DNA of 57,137 nucleotides from Nitrospirales bacterium (lineage in GTDB: Bacteria > Nitrospirota > Nitrospiria > Nitrospirales > UBA8639): the NCBI GenBank assembly GCA_012270585.1, contig JAAXIB010000016.1:1-57137 (forward strand). Reading direction: 5' to 3'. Under the pieces are notes generated by a model. It saw only the letters and a list, made by a program, of their open reading frames with translations, did no database searches and was not told where the DNA came from. A program made the position numbers and the translations under genes. Positions 15,496-57,137 of the stretch are shown here, one piece after another. The first letter of the stretch is position 1. Each line of letters begins with the position of its first letter.

Positions 15496-15902
15496 TTACA
15501 TGTATGTAAAAAGTTCACGTCCTTTGGTACGAAAATAAAAAATTGTTCATAAAAATCAAGAAGTTAGAAATTAGACATTCTGGAGACCGGAACGCCCCAT
15601 TTTCATCCCTTGGAGTGCAGGCGGCCACGCCTGCATGAAGGATTGATATGAAAATAGCCAAGACACCCCCGAACTGTCAGTCCTGCGGAAGCAGGAATCC
15701 AGGGTCGTTCTTTTCACGAGCGGAGGCAAAGGCAAAAGCAAAGACGCTGGATTCTCGATTTAGATCCTCGATTACCAATGGCCTGGGGGATTTCCGGACG
15801 TTTTTTCTTTCATGGGGATTGAAGATTCATTCCGGCCTTTGCTATTTTCCCCACCAATTCGCTGACGACAAACGGATCATGATGCGGACTCGCTAAATAA
15901 CC
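15496..15902. repeat. Gene-free region with palindrome and dispersed repeat
   Basis: A perfect 14-base palindrome TTACATGTATGTAA lies at 15496-15509 right after the DUF3365 stop. A copy of the dispersed repeat (CCTGCGGAAGCAGGAATCCAGG, GGATTCTCGATT, GATCCTCGATTACC) occupies about 15672-15782. No gene is supported; the region also holds the unseen promoter of nhaD. Confidence 0.6.
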
Positions 15903-39055: not shown

Positions 39056-41422
39056 CTATAATATTTCCAACGGGTCCACGTTCACCCCGAATTTGATGCG
39101 TCGATGGGGTGTTTCCCTGGTCATCAGCTCGAGCGTTTGTCGGACGAGGGTTCGCCCGGCGGCCCCGTCTGCGACTTTGACCAACAGATGGTAGCGGCAC
39201 TGTCCCCGCGGCTTGGCTCCATGCGAGACAAGAGGACCCAGGATGGCGTCCTGTTCATGCCGTTGCATGTCTCCTCGGGCGATCATGAGGGCGAGTCCGT
39301 TTGTGAGATGCTGTTGCCATCGCTTTGCGGCCTTTTCGGTTTCCGCTGCCTCCTGGCCTGAGACGTGCAACTGGATGAGCTGCCCGAAGGGTGGGTATCC
39401 CACCATCCGGCGAAAGGCCAATTCATGGTCATGGAAGAGCTTGGGCGGTTGTTGACCGACGGCGTGCATCACCGGATGCGAGGGCAGGCGCGTTTGGATG
39501 AGCGCGGATCCGGAAAGGCCGGGCGTCAACAGATCGACGGCCTGTTGGAGATGGTGAAACACTCGTTCCGACGATCGAAAATCCGGCACGTGCAAGCCGG
39601 CGTCCGCATAGGGGATGACGACGCATCGCACCGGCGCAAAGGGTGTGGCCTGAAAGAGCAGTTGTGTCCCGACGACAATCTGGATCTGCCCTTGAGTAAA
39701 GCGCTCTCGAATGCGCTGTGCGGCGGATGCACTTCGGATCGTGTTGCCGTCATAACGTGCGATGGTTGCGTGGGGGTACAGACGCTGCAATTCTTCTTCA
39801 AGGCGTTCCGTGCCGAAGCCCACCGGTTCCAAACGCGTGCCGGAACAGGCCGGGCACGCGGTTGGTATGGGCTCGGCCTGCCCACAATAGGAGCACCGCA
39901 GTTGTGATTGCCGGAGACTCAAGGCAATCCTGCAGTGTGAGCATTGCGGCGCCGTTCCGCAATCCCGGCAGGTGACGGACGAAGAAAACCCCTTACGATT
40001 GTGATAGACAACGACCCCGCCGCCATGGGCCAGAGCCTGCTCGATGCCGTTCCGCAAAGTATCGGAGAAGATCGTGCCGAACGGGGCTTCTTGAAGGCCG
40101 ATCATCTGAACCGGATGCGGGGTGCTCCGCTTGGCGAAAGCCCGTTGAGAATCCTCGTCGTGCGCAAAGCGATGGACCGTCTCCAAGGTGGGGTAGGGCG
40201 TGTGCAGCACGAGCACGGCGTCGTCCAACTCGGCTCGTTTTCGTGCGACCTCCCGGGCGTGATAGTGCGGACTCGGATCTTCCTTGTACGCGCTCTCTTC
40301 CTCACGTTCGACCCATAGACAGCCCAGGGAGGGGAGAGGGAGGAAGAGCGCTGACCTCGTCCCCACGACCACCGGATAAAGGCCGTGTTTGACGGCTTGC
40401 CAGTGTTGCAAGCGCTGTCTATCCGAAAGGCCGCTGTGAAACTCTCCTATCGGATGGCTTACCGAGCGCCGGAGATGAGCGACCAGACGCGCGGCTTGGT
40501 GAATATTCGGAGCGATCACCAGGACCGTCCGTGCCCGGGTCGTCGTTGCTCGTATAACGGTGGCTAACAGGGGGTGCGGAAATGCCGCTTCAGTAGCCAG
40601 TACCTCTCCGAATCGTTTGGACTGAAGGTGTTGCGCAAAACTGCCCCACCACGAGGGAAGGCCGGGACGTTCATCCGGGATTTCGAGAAAGCCCTGTACA
40701 GGCGTGCTGTCCTTCCCGTCCCTCCTCTCGTCCTTACCATCTCTCCCTCTGTCATTCCCGCTTCTCCCTCTGTCATTCCCGCGAAAGCGGGAATCCAGGT
40801 TTTCCTTTTTCGAGGTTTCGAGAAAACTCTTTGCAGGGGACGCCGGTGCGGAGCCGCTTTGAAACGGTCGTTCGGTCCAGTCCTGCCGTTTCTGAATCCA
40901 TGTGTGTCGTTTGAGCCGTTGCAGGACCGTGGCGGGGTTGTCCAGCAGCGCCTCAATGGTTGCTTGCGCCAAGCCTTTGGAACGTTTGGCGAGCGCGGCA
41001 AGGAGTTTGTACGTGGAGGTGCCGGTCCGGGTTGCTTCCAGGCGTTGTCGGCCTTGCGGGGTAATGGTCCAACGGGTGCTGCTGCGAAAGGGGAGACCCG
41101 GGGGTTGGACAAGCACCAGGCAGGTTCCCAAGGGGGCCAGGTAATAGTCCGCCATCCATTGCGCCAAGGCAATGAGCCTGGGGTCCGGGTCCCAAAGCGC
41201 AGAGGTGAGGAAATGCAGTTCGCGGATACGGCCCGGAGCAACGGGGGGTTGCTTCACGTGCTCGGCAAGAGAGACAATAATTCCCGGCTTGACACGCGGA
41301 CCGAACGGTGCCAGGACCCATTGCCCTATTTTGGGGCTGGAACTCCATGAGTGAGGAATACGGTACGTAAACGATTGAGAGGTCCCGGGAGGAAAGACGA
41401 CGTCGGCATAGGATGATGGCAT
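39056..41422 (-). CDS. priA: PriA-like primosomal protein without ATPase motifs
   Basis: A 788-residue PriA family member. The N-terminal 3'-DNA-binding domain is recognisable (ADVVFPPGTSQSFTYRIP...GQWVLAPFG). The zinc-binding cysteines are intact (CRDCGTAPQCSHC, CSYCG, CPACSG, about residues 470-510), as is the late helicase block FGTERLEEELQRLYPHATIARYDGN. But the Walker A region reads TEAAFPHPLLATVIRA where GVTGSGKTE is expected, and the Walker B/DEEH site reads WVEREEESAYKED. It should not hydrolyse ATP and may act as a primosome scaffold, as proposed for actinobacterial PriA. Residues about 207-240 are encoded by an inserted repeat (LDSRFRGNDRGRSGNDRGRD). Confidence 0.85.
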   Translation of the reverse strand: MPSSYADVVFPPGTSQSFTYRIPHSWSSSPKIGQWVLAPFGPRVKPGIIVSLAEHVKQPPVAPGRIRELHFLTSALWDPDPRLIALAQWMADYYLAPLGTCLVLVQPPGLPFRSSTRWTITPQGRQRLEATRTGTSTYKLLAALAKRSKGLAQATIEALLDNPATVLQRLKRHTWIQKRQDWTERPFQSGSAPASPAKSFLETSKKENLDSRFRGNDRGRSGNDRGRDGKDERRDGKDSTPVQGFLEIPDERPGLPSWWGSFAQHLQSKRFGEVLATEAAFPHPLLATVIRATTTRARTVLVIAPNIHQAARLVAHLRRSVSHPIGEFHSGLSDRQRLQHWQAVKHGLYPVVVGTRSALFLPLPSLGCLWVEREEESAYKEDPSPHYHAREVARKRAELDDAVLVLHTPYPTLETVHRFAHDEDSQRAFAKRSTPHPVQMIGLQEAPFGTIFSDTLRNGIEQALAHGGGVVVYHNRKGFSSSVTCRDCGTAPQCSHCRIALSLRQSQLRCSYCGQAEPIPTACPACSGTRLEPVGFGTERLEEELQRLYPHATIARYDGNTIRSASAAQRIRERFTQGQIQIVVGTQLLFQATPFAPVRCVVIPYADAGLHVPDFRSSERVFHHLQQAVDLLTPGLSGSALIQTRLPSHPVMHAVGQQPPKLFHDHELAFRRMVGYPPFGQLIQLHVSGQEAAETEKAAKRWQQHLTNGLALMIARGDMQRHEQDAILGPLVSHGAKPRGQCRYHLLVKVADGAAGRTLVRQTLELMTRETPHRRIKFGVNVDPLEIL
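40745..40802 (-). repeat. Repeat element inserted in frame in priA
   Basis: GTCATTCCCGC...GTCATTCCCGCGAAAGCGGGAATCCAGG, including ATTCCC-N8-GGGAAT (40775-40794), a perfect match to the Neisseria dRS3 pattern. It lies in the priA coding frame without a stop and adds an Asp/Arg/Gly-rich loop between the DNA-binding and helicase parts. Confidence 0.85.
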
Positions 41423-57040: not shown

Positions 57041-57137
57041 AGACTCTGGATTCCTGCTTTCGCAGGAATGCCAGCAGCGGAACCCGGGACGCCAGGGGGT
57101 TTGCTTTTCTTTCTGTCATCCTTGTATGTGTTCAGTA
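57041..57137. repeat. Dispersed repeat at the window end
   Basis: ATTCCTGCTTTCGCAGGAAT (57050-57069) is the inverted counterpart of 18-37, and the last 25 bases repeat CTGTCAT...TGTATGTGTTCAGT seen at about 38268. Confidence 0.8.

Follow-up and report, generated by a model that had tools for sequence, protein, structure and literature searches.

The priA gene and its product

The window analysed here is a stretch of 57,137 nucleotides from a Nitrospirales bacterium. On its minus strand, positions 39056–41422 hold an open reading frame of 788 amino acids, the product of which was identified as PriA by TIGR00595 (360 bits; cut-off 230), by Pfam matches to PriA_3primeBD and PriA_C, and by a match to a solved structure (PDB: 4nl4). 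The reading frame is interrupted by a palindromic repeat and, as the preliminary description had stated, reads through it in frame. A structure predicted with AlphaFold2 from an alignment of 40 PriA sequences has a mean pLDDT of 85.3 and a pTM of 0.86, and its only stretch with a pLDDT below 50 comprises residues 197–252. This predicted disordered segment lies between two ordered parts which, from established knowledge of PriA, we take to be the winged-helix region (ending near residue 184) and the helicase region (starting near residue 259). The residues added by the insert, 196–240, fall within this linker, in keeping with the earlier proposal that they are placed between domains; judging from the predicted structure, an insertion at this position need not disturb any fold.

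The PriA of this genus has no recognisable Walker A motif (no GKT), DEAH-type motif II (EREE or EREG instead) or motif VI, and the same motifs are missing from the aligned members of the genus and the near family. The protein may be a pseudohelicase like the PriA of D. radiodurans (PMC4504706).

Anatomy of the insert

Comparison with orthologues in which the site is empty places the insert at 40703–40837 (minus strand; 135 nt, 45 codons), close to the 40690–40830 given previously. In the sense of the mRNA it comprises, in this order, a segment similar to the native linker that follows it, a repetitive extragenic palindrome (REP) and a tail of half-REP units. The REP core occupies 40771–40797 of the plus strand and includes a TGTC tag (40771–40774), an 8-bp stem ATTCCCGC/GCGGGAAT (40775–40782 and 40787–40794), the loop GAAA (40783–40786), and a CCA tail (40795–40797). 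Its palindrome, ATTCCCGCGAAAGCGGGAAT at 40775–40794, corresponds without mismatch to the pattern ATTCCC-N8-GGGAAT noted in the preliminary description, and on the minus strand the core encodes LDSRFRGND within the uninterrupted reading ...KKENLDSRFRGNDRGRSGNDRGRDGKDERRDGKD... of priA. The REP can be read without a stop in five of its six frames. The hairpin has a folding energy of −16.4 kcal/mol (z −2.72) and is the only part of the insert that stands out in this respect, since the RNA fold of the whole insert is no better than that of shuffled sequences (z −0.09).

The tail (40703–40770, minus strand) is built of about three degenerate units of approximately 21 nt, each repeating the 3' half of the REP as GCGGGAATGAC plus a GA-rich spacer; the first unit reads GCGGGAATGAC-AGAGGGAGAG, and an exact copy of GTCATTCCCGC is found at 40751–40761 of the plus strand. 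REPs with such tails are present at other loci of the genus, and in the genome of the window 6 of 59 copies examined carry half-REP units on this side of the core and 1 of 59 on the other.

The insert is also flanked by an imperfect direct repeat of 27 nt with 78% identity, whose upstream copy (40811–40837, minus strand) forms the left part of the insert and whose downstream copy (40676–40702, minus strand) is native linker sequence. The spacing of the two copies, 135 nt, equals the length of the insert. Extended to 42 nt, the repeat has 24 of 42 positions identical, and of 2220 offsets tried within priA, 11 do as well. A duplication flanking the insert is thus suggestive, not proven.

The REP family in the genome and the genus

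Copy numbers were obtained by pattern searches of the genomes. Within the window alone, a match with at most one mismatch would be unremarkable (0.36 expected), so that the significance of the element derives from the genome-wide count: 66 matches to GTCATTCCCGCGNNNGCGGGAATCC with at most three mismatches in the 2.5-Mb genome, against none for the reversed control pattern. The family is found in all 14 genomes of the genus (9–285 matches each), which bears out the description of the element as a dispersed repeat. Two further degenerate REPs with three mismatches each are located in the window at 15676–15700 and 57048–57072.

Among 62 scored genomic copies, the tag is TGTC in 51 and CGTC in two, the commonest loop is GAAA (43 copies), and the CCA tail is present in nearly all. 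One position of the stem covaries completely, being T-A in 50 copies and C-G in 12 with no mixed pair, which indicates that the hairpin is kept. Most copies are followed by a second inverted palindrome, CTGGATCCTCGATTA...TGTCGAGGATGACAG, as a composite dimer (e.g., at L081 and L093); in 35 of the 62 complete copies this second palindrome, which has a different stem sequence, lies within about 135 nt. Unlike these, the REP in priA has no second inverted palindrome nearby. A recurrent motif, TATTTTCATACCAATGACA, was seen adjoining REPs at five loci of this genome and a relative (L019, L023, L076, L082 and L116). The genome with the highest count (G007; 285 copies) has many of them in tandem at a spacing of about 66 nt and has no Y1 transposase match.

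The priA gene was the sole clear instance of a conserved protein interrupted by a REP among 96 copies in the three genomes that carry the insert (G000, the genome of the window, G008 and G011). In ten candidate ORFs scanned for further interruptions, the REP was in no case bridged by a domain.

Relation to known palindromic elements

The features of the element in priA are those of the CGTC-1 REPs, which have CGTC or TGTC as their tag, a stem of 8 bp that starts with A-T pairs, a loop of 4 nt and an unpaired tail with the consensus CCA (PMC3733652; Di Nocera et al. 2013). It has this tag, a stem that begins with two A-T pairs, a loop and tail of the same kind, and tens of dispersed copies; like the CGTC-1 REPs, moreover, it lies inside a gene, and the genes so affected include those of replication and repair (PMC3733652). 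A possible difference concerns dimers, which in CGTC-1 REPs mostly join like units in opposite orientation; many copies in the present genome have a nearby palindrome with another stem, and the copy in priA has none. The earlier analogies with the Rickettsia palindromic elements (RPEs) and with dRS3 of Neisseria were sound, as all belong to one superfamily, in which dRS3 is CGTC-1 in Neisseria, RPE-6 of R. conorii is likewise CGTC-1, and RPE-4 is CGTC-4 (PMC3733652). While the core in priA matches the dRS3 pattern exactly, the association of dRS3 with RS elements in arrays is a feature specific to Neisseria.

A very close parallel is provided by the in-gene RPE-4, RPE-6 and RPE-7 of Rickettsia, in which extended regions rich in ATGAC are found at conserved, solvent-exposed sites (PMC3767692). 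These extended elements form ORF inserts of 68–192 nt, at the same site in orthologues, and the flanks of extended RPE-4 are enriched in the palindrome-derived ATGAC much as the tail in priA is composed of half-REPs (PMC3767692). As in an RPE, the priA element is an in-frame insertion into a preexisting ORF, evident from the empty sites of congeners, at a place that is solvent-exposed as a predicted disordered linker. In Rickettsia, however, many genes are affected and all orthologues keep the insert, whereas here one gene was found and the site is empty in most congeners. Because the host is Nitrospira and a single gene was found, we consider that the insert works like an RPE but do not file it as one.

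The REPs and REPINs linked to RAYTs are similar in being short palindromes possibly mobilised in trans, but their tag is GTAG and that of the priA element TGTC. Genes for REP-associated tyrosine transposases (NF047646) exist in some genomes of the genus; the one in the genome of the window (L072:1456–1920) is truncated to profile positions 1–89 of 146, and that of G008 (L151:1432–1998) is complete. No REP-like site was found in the fetched flanks of these transposase loci (L072 and L150–L154), so that they do not have the arrangement of a REPtron. Matches to Y1_Tnp were noted in all three genomes with the priA insert and in 2 of the 11 others, a post hoc observation in small numbers.

Distribution and history of the insert

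The preliminary description had proposed a comparison with close relatives, and the site in G000 was accordingly compared with the 12 congeneric priA genes that cover it (G001 is represented a second time by L061, and the priA of G007 is cut off before the site). Exactly 45 extra residues are present in G000, G008 and G011 (L031, L032 and L033, respectively) and absent from 10 of the 12 congeneric genes; the compared segment has 106 aa in the three carriers and 59–65 aa in all other congeners. In the 11-species clade, 8 of the 11 species are without the insert and have empty segments of 59–61 aa. All three carriers have the insert at the same site as a single homologous unit that aligns without gaps over its 135 nt, and the 27-nt REP core is identical in all three (27/27), synonymous sites included, so that both congeners having the residues also have the repeat signature in their DNA. 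The outcome of the proposed comparison thus favours the preliminary description. That two other genomes have the same insert in priA, with the divergence one would expect, led us to reject an assembly or binning artefact, to which we assign a negligible probability even though the genome is a draft of 89 contigs.

Outside the core, the inserts of G000 and G008 are identical at 80 of 108 sites (26% divergence), and their priA genes outside the insert are 80% identical. These values fit an insert about as old as the split between the two clades concerned. Between G008 and G011, the non-core part of the insert differs by 13% and the gene by 9%. In a priA tree calculated with the insert left out, G000 joins the empty G001, and G008 and G011 join the empty G013; these clades are strongly supported, and monophyly of the carriers is rejected (lnL lower by 417; p-AU 3e-65). 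The resolution of a nuoD tree was too poor to add to this result.

We regard a single old insertion with several exact losses after it as the likeliest history. The REP insert would have entered once, in an ancestor of the 11-species clade, and would have been tolerated because a REP is open in five of six frames and because there is no fold in the linker for it to disrupt. It would later have been lost exactly, about six times, probably by slippage or recombination between the flanking imperfect direct repeats with the hairpin helping; a deletion of this kind would take out exactly 135 nt in each event. In terms of parsimony, two acquisitions would be preferable to one gain with about six exact losses. 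Hybrid copies of the direct repeat, such as excision could leave, were sought at the informative sites of the empty genes and were not clearly shown. On a bolder reading, the REP hairpin between direct repeats would make the insert an excisable in-frame peptide cassette that can be lost exactly, and the PriA of the genus would switch repeatedly between two linker lengths, an idea that we regard as unlikely.

The main rival to a single gain with losses is an old transfer between the clades, by which one allele would have been acquired twice: after arising in one of the two lineages, the insert would have passed to the other through homologous recombination at priA, shortly after the clades had split. 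Two changes on the priA tree then suffice, and the near-equal lengths of the empty linkers in the 11-species clade look as if these had never been filled. Against this, the sequences on either side of the insert in L031 match the type of its own clade, so that the transferred tract would have to be confined to the insert. For a transfer later than the split of L031 and L034, the 26% non-core divergence between L031 and L032 moreover exceeds the prediction scaled from the ratio of insert to gene divergence in L032 and L033, by about two standard errors only. We consider such a transfer possible but decidedly less probable than a single gain with losses. Two independent insertions of similar tailed REPs at a hotspot in priA might be imagined, as tailed REPs exist elsewhere in the genus and a hotspot has been considered for the RPEs of Rickettsia (PMC3767692). 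Independent events would, however, probably have produced inserts of different length and with different junctions, whereas L031 and L032 are homologous without gaps over the full 135 nt and have both the priA-like left part and the right end AAGGACAGCACG in common, which renders this explanation highly improbable.

Possible function

The most likely role of the insert is, in our estimate, that of near-neutral padding of the linker. Nothing points to a strong function; the differences between the carriers are mainly nonsynonymous and most species of the clade are without the insert. The preliminary description had spoken of a repeat recruited into priA; the insertion into coding sequence is borne out, while nothing in the present analysis demonstrates the function implied by that word. 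It might nevertheless be kept for a role, either as a hairpin in DNA or mRNA or as an Arg/Lys/Asp-rich peptide that tunes PriA. The identical core in three species would agree with this, given that, of 653 other 27-nt windows in priA, no more than 5 are identical in all three carriers, as would the singularity of priA among the REP copies examined. In the literature, many in-gene REPs are found in replication and repair genes, and in some species no other gene is affected, a bias towards such genes that was reported and left unexplained (PMC3733652). On the other hand, eight species of the clade manage without the insert, the codon changes between L031 and L032 are 19 nonsynonymous and two synonymous, the RNA fold of the complete insert is unremarkable, and an orthologous intergenic core (L106/L107) is nearly identical too, so that identity of the core need not be specific to priA. 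A selected role thus appears quite unlikely. In toto, we hold with good confidence that the best explanation is a tailed REP of the CGTC-1 type that entered the flexible linker of PriA while keeping the reading frame, with the history and the near-neutral function proposed above.

Significance

Insertions of REP type in genes have been described in Rickettsia and in other bacteria, and the priA case is a well-documented new example. The host genus is new, as are the patchy distribution of filled and empty sites within it and, as far as the main text of PMC3733652 goes, the gene. That main text does not name priA, and Nitrospira is not mentioned in the article text; a survey of REPs (PMC12306157) includes one Nitrospira species. 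The present case adds Nitrospira to the bacteria in which REPs become protein, again in a gene of replication and repair. As filled and empty sites occur in one genus, unlike in the published Rickettsia cases, gain, loss and effect of such an insert are comparable between close species.
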